7,806 bases of DNA from an uncultured delta proteobacterium (GTDB lineage: Bacteria; RBG-13-61-14; DRUE01): positions 1 to 7,806 of the forward strand of contig CAIYYW010000109.1 in the NCBI GenBank assembly GCA_903930515.1, read 5' to 3'. The first letter of the stretch is position 1; each line of letters begins with the position of its first letter. Positions 1-7,806 of the stretch are shown here, in pieces. The translations under genes and the position numbers were made by a program. The notes under the pieces were generated by a model. It was not told where the DNA came from. It saw only the letters and a list, made by a program, of their open reading frames with translations, and did no database searches.

Positions 1-2709
1 CCCAAAGGCGGCGCTCATACTGGGAGAGAGTTCCATGGTCGGCCCTTTGATAATATGATCCGGGAAAATGGGAGAGGCCAGGAAATAGCGCGGGGTGTCA
101 ATGATACTATCCGGTCCCGGGCATACCCCGATCTGCGCCCCCTGATAGCGGTAATAAACCATCAAGTTATCCTTGAGCCGGTTGTTGGGATCGCCGAAAA
201 AGACCGGATCGTATCCGTTGCCGGCAAGAGCGCCCAGCCAGTTGTTACCGAGCATAGTCAGTTCGCCGGTATCATAATTGATGTCATAGTCCGTTCCGTT
301 CACTAAAATCTCGCTTGCCACCGGTCCCCCGCCCAAAAAATTATAGATCGAAATATAGAATGAGACGAGGATTTCGCTGCCGGGAACGATCTGGCGGTGG
401 TTGAGCGGGACGGAATTGGCATATTTAAACCGAGCCCATTCCAAACCCGCGGCCGGATTGATTTCGCATAACTCATCGTCATTGACCGGAACTTTTTTGA
501 TTTTCCTCAGCAATTCCTCGGTCCGCCCCTGGTCGAATTTCTTGTTCTTGCCCGGACAGATTCCAACCCGGTCGCCCTGGTGACAGAAATAATCATCCCC
601 GGAAAGAAAATCGGTCGCGGTCTGAAGCTGTCCATCTCCTCCCGCGCTGATGGCACCCGCGTTGCTCTTGCCTCCCAGCGCGCACTGATTGAATTGATCA
701 GCCATAGACAGCGGATTGCAATTCTGGTTCCTCCAATATTCCGGGGGGTTCAAACCGATCGCCGCAGTCGCCCATTGATCATCGCCCAGCAAGTAAGCGG
801 TCTCGTCCTTGGCTCCGGACACGGAATCCCCGCAGTTGAGGTCGGGATTTCCCGGGGCTTCAGTCTTGAGTTGGTAATAAGCCGGGAAAACCGGCTCCCG
901 GTACGAAACGCATTTGGGGAAATAATAGGTATTGATCACTCCGTCCGGTCCCGAATTGATTCCCGGATTGCCGCTGTTAGCGGATTCCTCGTCAACCAGG
1001 GCGGTGGAATCCAGGGATCCGTCATCGCCGAAAGTGGTGCAGACGCTGTTGGGATAGCCTCTGCCCGGGACGGCCACTTGCGTATCGTCTCCCTCGGCCT
1101 TGGTCTCGCAATAGCCGTACCGGCCGCTGGACACCACCGGGGCATTGGGTTCCCCGGGGGCATCTTCGTCCTTGCTCCGTGGCAACAGGCTGGGCCGATC
1201 CTCGTAAATATTCTTTAAGCTCCACTCCAACCCCGTGAGCCTGTCCAAACTGGAAAGCTGAAAAATGCCCGAGCCGGTGGAAATAAACATCCAGAGCTGG
1301 TTCCCGATCTGGATCACGCTGGGGGCTTCATTTCCCAGGCTGGGGATATTGGTTTTGACGCCGCGAAAATATTCTCCGTCATCAATATGGTCCTTGTCAT
1401 CAACTTCCCAATACTGCATATTGCCGTCCTGGATGCCCAGGGTGTCTTCCGGATCGCTTACCCCGCCCCCTTCCACCGGGCAGATTTCATAAATCCCCCA
1501 ATCGCCTTCGTCGCCGGTATCGGGGACGCCGTCGCAATCCGGATAGATGTCCCGGACCAGGGTGCTGACATCGTCTGGCTCGAACGAGGGACCGTTGTTC
1601 AAATCCGGATTCCCGCTCTTGGCCGGCATAATGCCCGCGCGATAGATAACGGAAGTCGGATCCCAGGGGATGCCGACCATCGGGGCGGATTCCACCATCA
1701 CGATGAAGTCGTATTCCATGGTCTGCGCGATTCCTTTCTTGGCCTCCCAGTCGGTGATCAGGAGCCAATAATCGCGGTTCGGCCGGGCCATATATCCCAC
1801 CATCGGATCCAGTCCCCGGCTCAGGTCAATCCCGAAGCGGGAACTGCTCACGGGCTTTTCCGTGCTCGGGTCCGGGACTCCTCCGGAGGCGGTTTCGTAA
1901 AGGCTGAGCCGGAGGATGCGGGCTCCTTTCATATTGAACTGGTCGCCCATTACCCGGAGTTTCAGGGGGATAATCCTATTGAGGCCGAACTGGCTGACGG
2001 GAATCAGGACCCAGTCCAAGTCATACCCGGGGGATACCCTGGGTTCAATTTTATCTTTGAAATAGCAGTTGGTTCCGGTCAGGGTGCTGAAATCCTGGTT
2101 CGGATCGTTCGGGACATCGCTGAAATCGTTGTTGAGCCCGTCCACAATCCCGCCGGAGCTTTTGCAGAGAAAAACATCATTGCCGTTGAAATCTTTGGTA
2201 GTCATCGGGTAATTGGTGTAATAAAAAAACAACTTATTGTTGACCACCACCGCTTCCGGATGGTCCGACGCACTCCGGAGATCGCGGCCGCAGTTATTCA
2301 CATAATCTTTATAAAAAATGGTCTGGTCCATATCGCGCACCGGAGGATTGGCGTTGGTATATCCGTCTCCGCAGGGGTGTTGGATGTTATAATTCAACTG
2401 CTCATCGCTGGGGGATTTCATTGAAGGCCGGTACGGGAGGTCGCCCACATGATAGGTGACCAGGTAGATATTCTCTTCAAACATCAGGGTTTTTATCTGG
2501 CCCTCCCCGACATGATAAAGGACGAACTTGCCGTATTCGGGAGCGGTATTGGCAGGAAACGCCGCGGTCAGGGGCTGGTCATTGGGAACCACTCCTCCGA
2601 TCCCGAATCCCGAACAAGCGGTCCCGGCTGAGATCGAGATCAGGAGAGCGCAGATCCAAATCCTGCCCGGTATATATTTTTTCGTTCCCAGATTTTTACG
2701 CCTGTCCAT
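1..2709 (-). CDS. Large exported Cys/Asp-rich protein, probable lipoprotein (3' end cut by window edge)
   Basis: The frame is open from ATG 2709 to position 1, 903 codons with no stop, and continues out of the window. I do not recognise a named family. The N terminus is basic (MDRRKNLGTKKY) and then hydrophobic (residues 17-28), ending in SAGTACSG. Cys32 may be a lipid anchor, though Gly at -3 is not the canonical Leu; Ser at +2 would suit outer-membrane sorting. The remainder is soluble and secreted in character: 16 further cysteines, few lysines, many Asp, Asn, Gly and Pro. DCDGVPDTGDEGD (391-403) resembles a thrombospondin type 3 calcium loop, and GDDGSLD (561-567) is similar. GNPxxN recurs at 366-371, 580-585 and 620-625. 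Blade-like segments PEAVVVNNKLFFYYT (151-165) and APSVIQIGNQLWMFIS (462-477) suggest a beta-propeller-like N-terminal part. NGTDYDINYDTGELTML (804-820) suggests a beta-sandwich. It is cotranscribed with the FadL-like barrel, so a surface-exposed role linked to that barrel is inferred. Coding status is secure; function is unknown. Confidence 0.88.
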   Translation of the reverse strand, partial: MDRRKNLGTKKYIPGRIWICALLISISAGTACSGFGIGGVVPNDQPLTAAFPANTAPEYGKFVLYHVGEGQIKTLMFEENIYLVTYHVGDLPYRPSMKSPSDEQLNYNIQHPCGDGYTNANPPVRDMDQTIFYKDYVNNCGRDLRSASDHPEAVVVNNKLFFYYTNYPMTTKDFNGNDVFLCKSSGGIVDGLNNDFSDVPNDPNQDFSTLTGTNCYFKDKIEPRVSPGYDLDWVLIPVSQFGLNRIIPLKLRVMGDQFNMKGARILRLSLYETASGGVPDPSTEKPVSSSRFGIDLSRGLDPMVGYMARPNRDYWLLITDWEAKKGIAQTMEYDFIVMVESAPMVGIPWDPTSVIYRAGIMPAKSGNPDLNNGPSFEPDDVSTLVRDIYPDCDGVPDTGDEGDWGIYEICPVEGGGVSDPEDTLGIQDGNMQYWEVDDKDHIDDGEYFRGVKTNIPSLGNEAPSVIQIGNQLWMFISTGSGIFQLSSLDRLTGLEWSLKNIYEDRPSLLPRSKDEDAPGEPNAPVVSSGRYGYCETKAEGDDTQVAVPGRGYPNSVCTTFGDDGSLDSTALVDEESANSGNPGINSGPDGVINTYYFPKCVSYREPVFPAYYQLKTEAPGNPDLNCGDSVSGAKDETAYLLGDDQWATAAIGLNPPEYWRNQNCNPLSMADQFNQCALGGKSNAGAISAGGDGQLQTATDFLSGDDYFCHQGDRVGICPGKNKKFDQGRTEELLRKIKKVPVNDDELCEINPAAGLEWARFKYANSVPLNHRQIVPGSEILVSFYISIYNFLGGGPVASEILVNGTDYDINYDTGELTMLGNNWLGALAGNGYDPVFFGDPNNRLKDNLMVYYRYQGAQIGVCPGPDSIIDTPRYFLASPIFPDHIIKGPTMELSPSMSAAFG

Positions 2710-2715
2710 TGAATT

Positions 2716-2722
2716 CCTCCTT
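2716..2722 (-). promoter_or_regulatory. Ribosome binding site of the large exported protein
   Basis: The minus strand reads AAGGAGG here, 6 bases before the ATG at 2709, inside the 24-base gap after the barrel gene's TGA. It is the main evidence that the long open frame to its left is a real gene and that 2709 is its start. Confidence 0.85.
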
Positions 2723-2733
2723 TTCTCTTATTC

Positions 2734-4119
2734 TCAATGCAGCCAGTTGAATTGCAGACCAGCCGCCCAGATCTGGCCTTCGGTATGATACCAATACACA
2801 TCCGCCGGGCCCCGGGGATTTCCCCAATAATCGTAGGACAACTGATAATCTTTTGTCGCCAAGTCCAGGTATTGAAGGTCAAGATCAATGGAGAATTGAT
2901 TCTTGGACCGGGGCCGTTCCAGACTGGATTTGCCCTTCCGGTCAAAGGCCAAGCCCATCCCGAAGGAATAAATATCCGCGTCGCTGTCAAACCTGGTCCC
3001 CCAGAGTTGGTCCGGATATGGGGATTTCCATTGAAAGTATCCGCCCCGGAGCGCGAGCGCGGAATTCCTCTGGCTGAGCGCGCCCGGGATCCCCGAAAGG
3101 CCTTTCAAGGCCAGGATATATTCCAGACCGTAACGGTTGACCGTGACATTACTCACCGGGGGCGGCGCTCCGTAACCCACGCTCACCACGCTGCTCAGTT
3201 TCGGATCGCTCCATTGCAGGTAGTCTCCATAGAGATCGTCATAGAGGTCCCCTAAGCCGATTTTTTGCTGGGTCCAGGCCAGGGTCAGCTCGCTTCTGGG
3301 GATCGGGATGTGCACCCCGACTCCATATTGCTGGATCGGGGGCGTGGTTGAGATGTCGCTGAGAATGATTGATTTCATATCATCCACCAAGCCCCCGCCT
3401 CTGATCACCAGCGGGATCCGGAGCCGGGTTTTGGTGAGAGGCACATTCACATATCCCAGGCTCAGGTATTTGATGGGACGGAAGGCCACGGAAAGGGCGT
3501 ATTGGGTGTCTTCCGCGGAAAATCCCAAATCAATATTGGGGTTGACATTGGTGGCCGGAGCTCCAATCGCGACCCCGAGCAGGCCTTGCAGAACCTGGGT
3601 CAGGCTGAGCTGAATCTCGCTGGCGCGGATCCAGAGGTTGCTCGCCGGGGCCACTCCCACCGCCAGGGTATCGTGGAGCCGGATTCCCACTCCGAAGCCC
3701 ATCGGATAAGGAAGAATGCCCGCGGAATAACTCGGCCAATCTCCTCCCACGCTTGGAGCCACATTGAGCAAAAACCCCAAACCGATCCGGTCGCGCAGGA
3801 CCTTCTGGGTCAGACCCATAATGATCCCGAATGATTGCGGACCCTCGTTGACATCGTTCACGATCATCTCTGAGGAAGGGAAATAGGTTAACTGGAGACT
3901 GGCGCTATTGGGGCTTAAGGCCAGCGCGGCCGGATTATAGGCGACCGCGTCGATGCCATCCGCGATCCCGACCATCGCCCCGCCCATGGCCGTGCTCCGG
4001 GCGCTCGCCCCGAACATCCGGGTGTAACCGTCGTTGAGGCCCATCGTCTGGCAAAAAAGCCGGGTGCAGAACAGCAAGGCAATTGTGAACGCCCAAGCCA
4101 AGAATAGTTTCCTTACCAT
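2734..4119 (-). CDS. FadL/PorV-like outer-membrane beta-barrel protein
   Basis: This is a 461-aa exported protein predicted to form an outer-membrane barrel. Residues 1-23 are a signal sequence (basic MVRK, then a hydrophobic run to about residue 18), with cleavage probably near residues 23-25, although no clean AxA site is visible. The mature N terminus has GASARSTAMGGAMVGIADG followed by VAYNPAALAL (37-68), the hallmark of FadL/OmpP1/TodX transporters and of the related PorV/PorQ group, where this stretch forms the N-terminal hatch. The rest is Gly- and aromatic-rich alternating strands (for example IGLGFLLNVAP, FGVGIRLHDTLAVGVAP, YSFGMGLAF) with polar loops, ending in AAGLQFNWLH, a C-terminal strand with aromatic residues suited to barrel assembly. 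Classical FadL transports long-chain fatty acids or other hydrophobic compounds, whereas PorV acts with partner surface proteins. The substrate here cannot be told from sequence. It is first in its unit, behind its own promoter, with the large exported protein 24 bases downstream. Confidence 0.82.
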   Translation of the reverse strand: MVRKLFLAWAFTIALLFCTRLFCQTMGLNDGYTRMFGASARSTAMGGAMVGIADGIDAVAYNPAALALSPNSASLQLTYFPSSEMIVNDVNEGPQSFGIIMGLTQKVLRDRIGLGFLLNVAPSVGGDWPSYSAGILPYPMGFGVGIRLHDTLAVGVAPASNLWIRASEIQLSLTQVLQGLLGVAIGAPATNVNPNIDLGFSAEDTQYALSVAFRPIKYLSLGYVNVPLTKTRLRIPLVIRGGGLVDDMKSIILSDISTTPPIQQYGVGVHIPIPRSELTLAWTQQKIGLGDLYDDLYGDYLQWSDPKLSSVVSVGYGAPPPVSNVTVNRYGLEYILALKGLSGIPGALSQRNSALALRGGYFQWKSPYPDQLWGTRFDSDADIYSFGMGLAFDRKGKSSLERPRSKNQFSIDLDLQYLDLATKDYQLSYDYWGNPRGPADVYWYHTEGQIWAAGLQFNWLH

Positions 4120-4162: not shown

Positions 4163-4191
4163 AACATATTTGAATTATAAAAACTTGTCAA
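4163..4191 (-). promoter_or_regulatory. Likely sigma-70-type promoter for the outer-membrane gene pair
   Basis: In the AT-rich gap between ppdK and the barrel gene, the minus strand has a perfect -35 TTGACA (4191-4186), a 17-base spacer and TATGTT (4168-4163, 4 of 6 matches to TATAAT). The start point would be near 4156, giving a leader of about 37 bases that contains the Shine-Dalgarno. A perfect TATAAT also lies at 4179-4174, but it is only 6 bases after TTGACA, and the hexamer at the proper distance upstream of it (GGGCCC) is a poor -35. Either element could be used. I see no operator repeat or riboswitch fold in the remaining leader. Confidence 0.6.
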
Positions 4192-4237: not shown

Positions 4238-6973
4238 CTCCAGGTTCAGCTTCTCCTTGAGCACGGCGTGCGCCGCGGCCATTCTCGCCACCGGCACCCG
4301 GTAGGGAGAGCAACTGACATAGTTCAGGCCGATCCGGTGGCAGAATTCCACCGAGCTGGGCTCGCCCCCGTGCTCTCCGCAAATGCCGATCTTGAGCTTG
4401 GCCCGGGTCGCCCTCCCCTTTTGCACCGCCAGCTCCATCAACTTCCCGACCCCTTCCTGGTCAATCGTTTCAAACGGGTCGCGCGGGTAAATCCGCAGCC
4501 GGACATACTCGGGCAGGAACGCCCCGGAATCGTCCCGGCTCATTCCCAAAGCGGTCTGGGTCAAGTCATTGGTTCCGAAGCTGAAAAAATCGGCCGCTTC
4601 CGCGATCAGGTCCGCGGCCACCGCGGCTCTCGGAATCTCAATCATCGTGCCGATTTTATATTCCAGCCGCTCCCCCTTCTCCTTCATCACATTCTTGATG
4701 ATCTGCTCGGAGCGCTTCCGGATCAACTCCAGTTCATTCGGGTGTCCCACCAGCGGGATCATTATCTCCGGAAGGGGCTTATGGTTGGTCCGCTTCGCCA
4801 CCTCGCACGCGGCCTCCATAATCGCCCGGACCTGGAGGTCATAAATTTCGGGATAGGTTATCCCGAGCCGGCAGCCGCGATGCCCGAGCATCGGGTTGAA
4901 TTCATGGAGCTGGTTCACCCGCGCCTTGACCTTGGCCGGAGTCACTTTCATCTTTTTCGCCAGCGCATTGATTTCCTTGGCCGCGTGCGGGACAAACTCG
5001 TGCAGGGGAGGATCCAGCAAGCGGATGGTCACCGGCATTCCCGGCATCTCCCGGAAAATCTCCGCAAAATCCCCCTTCTGCATCGGCAGAATTTTTTCCA
5101 GAGCCTTCTTCCGTTCCTCGCCGGTCTCGGCCAGGATCATCATGCGGATCGCCTCGATCCGGGCCGGCTCGAAAAACATATGCTCGGTCCGGCACAGCCC
5201 GATCCCTTCCGCGCCGAACTTCCTTCCGGCCAGGGTGTCGCGCGGAGTGTCGGCGTTGCAGCGCACTCCCAATTTTCTGATTTCATCCGCCCATCCCAGG
5301 ATAGTGTCAAAGTAGCGATAGATCAGGGAATCAGCCGGTTTCCTCTTGCCTTCCAGCAAAACCTGGACCACTTCGCTGGGATTGGTCTTGAGCTCGCCCT
5401 GCAAAACTTCTCCGGTGCCGCCGTCAATGGACAGCCAATCCCCTTGCTTCAGGGTTTTCCCGGAAACCGACATTTTCTTTTTCTTGTAATCAATCTCGAG
5501 CGCGGAGCATCCCACCACGCAGGGCTTGCCCATCCCCCTCGCCACCAAGGCCGCATGCGAGGTCATCCCGCCCCGGGCGGTCAAAATCCCGACCGCCACC
5601 GCCATCCCGTGGATATCCTCCGGGCTGGTCTCGGCCCGGACCAGGATCACCGGTCCCTTTTTCGCCTCCTTCTCCACTTCGTCGGCGTTGAAAATAATCC
5701 GCCCGCTCGCGGCCCCCGGGCCCGCGTTCAGGCCCTTGGCCAGGAACCTGCCTTTGGAAACCGCCCGCTTTTTTTCCTCAAGGTCGAAGATCGGCGCCAG
5801 CAACTGGATCAGGGCCTCCGGCTCCACCCGCCTCACCGCCTCGTCCTTCGAGATCAGCCGCTCCCGCACCATATCCACCGCGATCCGGACCGCGGCCATC
5901 CCGGTGCGCTTGCCCGAGCGGGTCTGGAGAATCCAGAGCCTTCCATTCTGAACCGTGAACTCCATATCCTGCATATCCTTGAAATGCCGCTCGAGCATCT
6001 TATAGATATTCACCAACTGTTTGAAGCAATTGGGCAAGTATTCCTCCAGGCTGACCTCGCCCAAAGATTTCTTCGCATCCTTCGTGATCGGAAGCGGAGT
6101 GCGGATGCCCGCGACCACATCCTCGCCCTGAGCGTTGGGGAGCCATTCCCCGAAAAAGTTTTTTTCGCCGTTGGCCGGATTGCGGGTGAAGCAAACCCCG
6201 GTGGCGGAATCCGTGCCCATATTCCCGAACACCATCGCCTGGACGCTGCAGGCCGTTCCCCATTCTTCGGGAAAACCGTTAAGCTTGCGGTAGGTGATGG
6301 CGCGGGGGGTGTTCCAACTGTCAAAAACCGCCTTGAGCCCTCCCCAAATCTGCTTCCAGGGATCCATCGGGAATTCCAGTCCCTTGTTTTCAATCATCTT
6401 CAAATATTGATGAACCACTTTTTCAAAATCGTGCTGGTCCAGTTCAATATCCCTTTCCACGCCCTTTTCCTTTTTCGCCCCCTCCAGGATTTCCTCAAAA
6501 TCGTCCCCGGAAATTCCCATCACCACATTCCCGTACATCTGGAGAAAGCGTCGAAAGCTGTCCCATCCGAACCGGGCGTTGTCGGTGCGCTCAATCATCC
6601 CTTTCAGGGTCTTGAGGTTCAGCCCCATATTCAGGATCGTGTCCATCATCCCCGGCATACTCACCCGCGCCCCGCTCCGCACGCTCACCAACAGCGGGTT
6701 GGTCTCGTACCCGAACCGCGCGCCCATCACCCGCTCAATCCGCCGGATGTTCTTCACCACATCTTCCTGCAACCCGGTCGGGAGCTGGCGGTTGTTCTGG
6801 AAATAGTAATTGCAAACCTCGGTGGTGATGGTGAACCCCGCGGGAACCGGGATCCCCTGGTTGGTCATCTCCGCCAGGTTGGCCCCTTTCCCGCCCAGCA
6901 GGTTCTTCATATCCGCCCGCCCCTCGGCCTTGCCGTCTCCGAAAAAGTAAATGAATTTTTTCCTCTTTGCCAT
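4226..6973 (-). CDS. ppdK: Pyruvate, phosphate dikinase
   Basis: This cytoplasmic enzyme interconverts ATP + Pi + pyruvate and AMP + PPi + phosphoenolpyruvate, for gluconeogenic PEP synthesis or PPi-linked glycolysis. All three domains are complete. The N-terminal ATP-grasp part has LLGGKGANLAEM (25-36, Lys29), SVRSGARVSMPGMMDT (97-112, Arg99) and ILQTRSGKRT (348-357). The swivelling phosphohistidine domain has GGMTSHAALVARG with catalytic His473 and the adjacent Thr471, the residue targeted by regulatory kinases in some PPDKs. The C-terminal TIM-barrel PEP/pyruvate domain has GLCRTEHMFF (Arg595), RLLDPPLHEF (Arg651), MLGHRGCRLG (Arg699), Glu779, SFGTNDLTQTALG (Asn802) and ICGEHGGEP with catalytic Cys865. 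These align with the Clostridium symbiosum active-site residues at a constant offset in the C-terminal domain. The length of 915 aa is normal to slightly long. PEP synthase is excluded by the PPDK-type motifs. It lies 10 bases after glyS and uses a strong Shine-Dalgarno. It contains no TTA, CTA or TCA codons, which fits high expression. Confidence 0.98.
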   Translation of the reverse strand: MAKRKKFIYFFGDGKAEGRADMKNLLGGKGANLAEMTNQGIPVPAGFTITTEVCNYYFQNNRQLPTGLQEDVVKNIRRIERVMGARFGYETNPLLVSVRSGARVSMPGMMDTILNMGLNLKTLKGMIERTDNARFGWDSFRRFLQMYGNVVMGISGDDFEEILEGAKKEKGVERDIELDQHDFEKVVHQYLKMIENKGLEFPMDPWKQIWGGLKAVFDSWNTPRAITYRKLNGFPEEWGTACSVQAMVFGNMGTDSATGVCFTRNPANGEKNFFGEWLPNAQGEDVVAGIRTPLPITKDAKKSLGEVSLEEYLPNCFKQLVNIYKMLERHFKDMQDMEFTVQNGRLWILQTRSGKRTGMAAVRIAVDMVRERLISKDEAVRRVEPEALIQLLAPIFDLEEKKRAVSKGRFLAKGLNAGPGAASGRIIFNADEVEKEAKKGPVILVRAETSPEDIHGMAVAVGILTARGGMTSHAALVARGMGKPCVVGCSALEIDYKKKKMSVSGKTLKQGDWLSIDGGTGEVLQGELKTNPSEVVQVLLEGKRKPADSLIYRYFDTILGWADEIRKLGVRCNADTPRDTLAGRKFGAEGIGLCRTEHMFFEPARIEAIRMMILAETGEERKKALEKILPMQKGDFAEIFREMPGMPVTIRLLDPPLHEFVPHAAKEINALAKKMKVTPAKVKARVNQLHEFNPMLGHRGCRLGITYPEIYDLQVRAIMEAACEVAKRTNHKPLPEIMIPLVGHPNELELIRKRSEQIIKNVMKEKGERLEYKIGTMIEIPRAAVAADLIAEAADFFSFGTNDLTQTALGMSRDDSGAFLPEYVRLRIYPRDPFETIDQEGVGKLMELAVQKGRATRAKLKIGICGEHGGEPSSVEFCHRIGLNYVSCSPYRVPVARMAAAHAVLKEKLNLEAPD

Positions 6974-6978
6974 AATAG

Positions 6979-6985
6979 CCTCCTT
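6979..6985 (-). promoter_or_regulatory. Ribosome binding site of ppdK, overlapping the glyS stop codon
   Basis: The minus strand reads AAGGAGG here, a full-strength Shine-Dalgarno, 5 bases before the ATG at 6973. Its first two bases are the last two of the glyS TAA (TAAGGAGG). This fixes the ppdK start and suggests that ribosomes finishing glyS help initiation on ppdK. Confidence 0.85.
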
Positions 6986-7806
6986 AAGATTTTTTTTCCG
7001 TTCCGCGCAAACGCGAAAAATCCGCGATCTTTCTAAATTCCTTCGCGATCCGGTCCAAAAGCGAATGCCGGTTGAGCCGGATTTTATGGTCCTCCGCGTT
7101 CACCAGCACCGTGTCGAAAAATTTGTCAATCGCCGGTTTCAGGGTTCCCAAGGACCGCATCGCCTCTTTCCAATTCCGGTCCGTGAGCGACTTTCCCAGC
7201 TCGCCCTGAACCGACTGGAACTCTTTCCAGAGCGAGCGCTCCTCGTCGCATTCAAACAAGGCGGGATCGAGTTCTCCGGTTTCTTCTATGATCCGGGCCA
7301 CCCTTCGGAACCCGACGAACAGGTCGTCAAACCCCGGCTCTTTCCGAAGCTCGTTCAAGGCCGAGGCCCTTTTGCCCGCGGACAAAATGCTTTGGTCCCA
7401 GGCTCCCAGAACCGCGTCCACAATGTCATAGTCAATCCCGGAATCAACCAGGATATTTTTCATCCGGGTGAGAAAAAAATCTTGAAGGGATTCCAAAAGT
7501 TTTTCCGCGTCCATCTTTTTCGACAGGCCGGAAAAAAGCTTCAGGCTTTTTCCCAGCAACCGGTCCAGGTTGAATTCCAACTCAAATTTGAGGGTAAGGG
7601 AAATCAAACCGTTGGCCATTCGCCGGATGCCGTAGGGGTCCGCGGAACCGGTTGGCTGGTTGCCGGAGATGAACCCCGCGACAATGGAATCCATTTTATC
7701 CACGATACTTAAAGCCCTTCCCAATTCTGTATCCGGGTAATTTTTATCTTTAATATCCGTTGCGTTTCTGGGAAGATAGTGATCCCGGATCGCCTTCCAT
7801 ACCGGG
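6984..7806 (-). CDS. glyS: Glycine--tRNA ligase beta subunit, C-terminal part (5' end cut by window edge)
   Basis: This is the C-terminal 273 residues of the beta subunit of the alpha2/beta2 glycyl-tRNA synthetase, which charges tRNA-Gly in the cytoplasm (Gly + ATP + tRNA giving Gly-tRNA, AMP and PPi). The frame is open to the right edge: before the internal TTG at 7724 it reads AIRDHYLPRN, so that TTG is not a start. Family signatures in order are HYLPR (about residues 9-13 of the visible part), ALSIVDKMDSIVAGF, the PTGSADPYGIRR segment typical of GlyRS beta, and a C-terminal helical DALR-type anticodon-binding domain ending in FFDTVLVNAEDHKIRLNR and a final FRKIADFSRL. The family is usually near 690 residues, so roughly 400 residues lie outside the window, and glyQ probably lies further upstream. 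The stop codon TAA (6986-6984) is embedded in the Shine-Dalgarno of ppdK. I see no frameshift or missing segment. The identification is very secure. Confidence 0.96.
   Translation of the reverse strand, partial: PVWKAIRDHYLPRNATDIKDKNYPDTELGRALSIVDKMDSIVAGFISGNQPTGSADPYGIRRMANGLISLTLKFELEFNLDRLLGKSLKLFSGLSKKMDAEKLLESLQDFFLTRMKNILVDSGIDYDIVDAVLGAWDQSILSAGKRASALNELRKEPGFDDLFVGFRRVARIIEETGELDPALFECDEERSLWKEFQSVQGELGKSLTDRNWKEAMRSLGTLKPAIDKFFDTVLVNAEDHKIRLNRHSLLDRIAKEFRKIADFSRLRGTEKKS

Follow-up and report, generated by a model that had tools for sequence, protein, structure and literature searches.

The window, a stretch of 7,806 bases that makes up the entire contig C109 of a 3.65 Mb MAG in 401 contigs, carries on its minus strand the first 903 codons of a giant exported-protein gene (1..2709), whose 3′ end is cut by the contig end and which would continue at C194:1-1995(+). 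A Shine-Dalgarno sequence, AGGAGG (2716..2721, minus strand), was read from the sequence 6 nt before ATG 2709. The first 31 residues (2617..2709, minus strand) form a signal sequence that ends ...SISAGTA-C32 and precedes a lipobox-like Cys32, with a hydrophobic stretch at residues 19-37. Both the strong Shine-Dalgarno and the signal sequence had been named in the original prediction, and both were found. A gene for a FadL/PorV-like outer-membrane barrel of 461 aa (2734..4119, minus strand), which scored below curated cut-offs, precedes the giant gene with a gap of 24 nt. A promoter-like site, TTGACA-17-TATGTT (4163..4191, minus strand), lies before the barrel gene and is a possible promoter of a two-gene unit of barrel and giant genes; the signal is weak, with the number of such sites not above that in shuffles. 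The genes upstream of the barrel gene, encoding PPDK and the glycyl-tRNA synthetase beta subunit, are ordinary genes.

From ATG 2709 to position 1, the minus strand reads through 903 sense codons with zero stops, and among 500 simulated first-order Markov sequences of equal length no open frame exceeded 323 codons. A 922-aa open frame on the plus strand (4268-7036) lies antisense to the bona fide PPDK gene (915 aa), and thus the length of a frame alone is weak evidence for a gene. Instead, conservation was decisive. A same-genus genome encodes an intact homolog of 1,613 aa that is 65% identical across all 903 aa, and a third genome, from the same order, encodes a homolog of 1,428 aa at about 40% identity, both free of internal stops. 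Between the window gene and the same-genus homolog, the differences were distributed over codon positions 1, 2 and 3 as 0.27/0.20/0.52 and dN/dS was about 0.17, showing that the giant gene is under purifying selection. Opposite the giant gene, the plus strand does contain open frames at 580-1218 (212 aa) and 1387-2424 (345 aa), which would be the genes if the 903-codon frame were a chance or decayed reading. However, comparing their translations between the window's genome and the same-genus genome gave just 41-42% identity, against 65% for the minus frame, and a Pfam/NCBIfam search gave no family match for either of them. The minus-strand codon pattern, the low dN/dS and the intact minus-strand homologs leave that reading next to no probability, and the plus-strand frames were ruled out as genes and are shadow frames. 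These results confirmed that the 903-codon frame is a real and apparently intact gene, as originally predicted from the sequence; the long opposite frames that had been called spurious were present and were spurious by conservation, and neither a plus-strand homolog nor a frameshift was found. Long shadow frames are common in the genome of this MAG.

The frame had been predicted to run off the window without a stop, and this is because contig C109 ends there, at an assembly break. The MAG was searched for the other half with the 1,613-aa homolog. Contig C194 contained 664 codons at 1-1992 (plus strand), followed by TGA, which matched the homolog from residue 950 onwards with 65% identity. The two contigs do not overlap, and a comparison with the homolog placed about 19 missing residues between them. 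Each half was present once in the MAG and each stops at a contig end, which is consistent with the halves belonging to one gene that would encode a protein of about 1,586 aa. By this reconstruction, the window holds the first 57% of the giant gene.

Apart from short repeat matches, no further homologs were found in 386 genomes across the domain or in 392 genomes of another phylum. When patterns derived from one protein were run against 84,980 species genomes, a scan that is blind to distant relatives, there was just one match apart from the RBG_13_61_14 homolog, and it was short. GTDB RBG-13-61-14 corresponds to Candidatus Coxosiota, with three species that have genomes of 3.65-4.74 Mb and come from freshwater and subsurface sediments (PMC11382960). 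We infer that the three genomes with the giant gene represent this lineage. The giant protein appears to form a lineage-specific, uncatalogued family. One segment of the window protein, residues 757-860 (130-441, minus strand; containing NGTDYDINYDTGELTML), is missing from the homolog of the third genome. This segment matched a Pseudanabaena contig over 49 residues and resembles a small module that also occurs elsewhere.

The original prediction could not name a family for the protein, and the natural giant proteins indeed matched no Pfam or NCBIfam family above cut-off; yet five motifs in them remotely resemble the blade-opening motifs of GH43/GH117-type propellers. Two of the five GH43-type motifs lie in the window part, at residues 146-180 (ASDHPEAVVVNNKLFFYYTN; 2170..2274, minus strand) and 457-512 (EAPSVIQIGNQLWMFISTGSG; 1174..1341, minus strand), and three lie in the C-terminal part. 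Long insertions separate the motifs, and an insert-free construct was made by removing these at splice points chosen by eye. When the insert-free sequence was compared to the PDB, 8 of 8 matches were GH43/GH117-type glycosidases (best E 0.0021), and a profile of three insert-free sequences gave 10 of 12 matches to the same type. In profile-profile comparisons, the score was about 40 against three GH43-like sets. None of 40 column shuffles scored above 26.1, the reversed profile stayed at or below 15.2, and the barrel reached 14.8; several further GH43-like proteins from the lineage did not match in this comparison. Against PF04616 (GH43), the insert-free construct reached E 0.099 and 12.4 bits, below the gathering score of 32.2, and the natural proteins did not match this model. 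Searching the PDB with a whole homolog or the whole alignment returned nothing useful, and AlphaFold2 was uninformative both for the window protein with one homolog (pLDDT 24) and for a three-blade piece of a homolog (pLDDT 31). Taken together, these comparisons make a moderate case for a five-bladed GH43/GH117-like propeller, and it is only moderate because the places to splice were picked by eye and because the C-terminal half, when left unspliced, gave no propeller match. The likeness to the propeller glycosidases of this type (1gyh, 5ta7, 3p2n) consists of the five blade-like motifs and of the insert-free sequence matching these chains first; on the other side, the E-values are marginal, the giant protein has insertions that run to hundreds of residues, and its catalytic pattern is not clearly kept. 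Of the Asp/Asp/Glu catalytic residues conserved in GH43, the Asp of blade 1 and the Glu of blade 2 are invariant and the Asp of blade 3 is not, with the blade register being uncertain; the sequence around the blade-3 acidic residue differs in the third genome (VDTPEV versus VGYPDV). An inserted segment at residues 225-345 (1675..2037, minus strand) looked PPC/jelly-roll-like by eye, and this assignment was rejected as it was without a Pfam match. Contigs C94, C326, C354 and C197 of the MAG encode several GH43-like proteins in open frames of 325-447 aa, some of them above the Pfam cut-off.

A repeat of about 56 residues with the approximate consensus I..G.DGIC.T.A..DD.Q..P.G.G.P...CV..G..G.L......DD lies in the insertion that separates blades 2 and 3. 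One well-matched copy is found in the window part, at residues 524-575 (985..1140, minus strand; G.DGIC.T...DD.Q..P.G.G.P...CV..G; E 6.5e-21), and two are found in the C-terminal part, together with weaker partial copies. No Pfam model covers the repeat, which may bind calcium, judging from its Asp/Asn/Gly pattern only. At E 1e-5 it was detected in 4 of the 386 genomes, namely the three genomes of the lineage and G058, which lies outside the lineage and was alone in its phylum among the 386. The other carriers are also large exported proteins, encoded at C207 2-3649, C342 2-3670 and C165 6623-8116 (same MAG) and at two G058 loci. Two different repeat proteins, those on C207 and C342 (both read from position 2 on), are truncated by a contig end at one shared peptide, DPEGGGTGIQTGVVSGRIFKPTLAGAGS, and near-identical sequence there probably broke the assembly of both contigs.

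The original prediction had proposed looking for the giant gene beside FadL-like genes in related genomes, and in all three genomes it directly follows a same-strand barrel gene with a product of 461-476 aa, the N-terminus of which is PorV/FadL-like at scores under the curated cut-offs. The N-terminus of the barrel in the window matched PorV_fam with E 3.2e-9 and 36.8 bits, below the cut-off of 90, and the barrel scored 14.8 bits against Toluene_X, below the cut-off of 29.7. A second pair is found on contig C165 of the same MAG, where a FadL-family barrel (4993-6600) is followed by the large repeat protein at 6623-8116. The C165 barrel was above the Pfam cut-off for Toluene_X (45.2 bits, 5.8e-12), and its partner has a near-threshold cohesin-like domain.

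Lipobox-like sites were seen by eye in all three giant proteins (AGTA-C, SGAA-C and AVWG-C), with the Cys preceding S/T in both homologs of the window protein, suggesting that the giant protein is lipidated at Cys32. The C-terminus was also conserved in all three, as a hydrophobic segment followed by a basic tail, and the combination of such an end with a putative N-terminal lipobox is unusual. Sorting by a PEP-CTERM/exosortase route is unlikely because no exosortase was found in the three lineage genomes (one control gave a match); the matches of the giant proteins to C-terminal sorting (CTERM) models were all below cut-off.

The reading that we favour, tentatively and with somewhat less than even confidence in the whole, is that of an outer-membrane lipoprotein with a barrel partner and a propeller binding head. 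The giant gene would follow the FadL/PorV-like barrel gene as the second member of a two-gene unit, and its product would reach the outer membrane as a lipoprotein by means of the signal sequence and lipobox. Its head would be a five-bladed GH43/GH117-like beta-propeller, broken by long insertions that include the Asp/Asn/Gly-rich 56-residue repeat. The barrel encoded upstream would act as a cognate docking or export partner, by analogy with the SprF-SprB and BamG-BamH pairs of Bacteroidota, and the propeller outside the cell would probably bind an extracellular glycan or another polymer or ligand. Contact between the barrel and the giant protein is suggested by gene order only, and surface binding is the probable function. 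FadL-family barrels that hold surface proteins do have precedents (PMC9143113, PMC12611786). SprB-SprF and the type B CTD proteins with PorP-like barrels (PMC9143113) are alike in that a very large repetitive surface protein is encoded beside a FadL-family barrel; they differ in that no SprA was found here, no sequence relation to SprB was shown and a putative lipobox replaces the CTD signal. In the BAM complex of Bacteroidota (PMC12611786), the FadL-family barrel BamG holds the surface lipoprotein BamH through the lipidated tail at the N-terminus of BamH, much as is proposed here; the giant protein is far larger, was found in one lineage only and has no shown sequence relation.

Binding is favoured over cutting because the GH43 pattern of acidic residues is not clearly kept. 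If the giant protein were instead an active surface glycosidase, its propeller would cut a polysaccharide and the barrel would import or pass the products. The GH43/GH117-like matches and the several GH43-like exported proteins of the same MAG would fit such an activity, but we consider it distinctly improbable given that the blade-3 acidic residue is not conserved in the third genome and that no match exceeded a GH43 cut-off. The main weakness of the outer-membrane reading is the C-terminal hydrophobic segment, which could mean anchoring in the inner membrane. Members of the FadL family transport hydrophobic molecules, and the barrel could thus be a separate transporter of hydrophobic compounds while the giant protein is periplasmic and held in the inner membrane by its conserved C-terminal segment and basic tail. 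The occurrence of alkane-degradation genes in the RBG-13-61-14 lineage (PMC13170169) would agree with such a transporter. However, the putative N-terminal lipobox in all three homologs and the recurrent pairing of a barrel with a large exported protein make inner-membrane anchoring rather unlikely. A third route would be type IX secretion, with the giant protein as cargo and the barrel as PorV. Despite the sub-threshold match of the barrel N-terminus to PorV_fam, this is very improbable because the translocon SprA was not found in the three lineage genomes, which are draft MAGs, in a search that did find it in 153 of 386 genomes.

Returning to the outer-membrane lipoprotein with a barrel partner, a broader proposal is that the FadL/PorV-like barrels of this lineage are dedicated export or anchor partners of giant surface proteins that operate without SprA, forming a barrel-cargo system independent of type IX secretion and with its own 56-residue repeat; we regard this as speculative and hold it with low confidence. 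The giant proteins add an uncatalogued family, with a barrel partner that is conserved, to a poorly known candidate phylum represented by three species. Should the barrel hold or export the giant protein, the principle of SprF-SprB and BamG-BamH would reach beyond the Bacteroidota group and could be tested in a setting without SprA.
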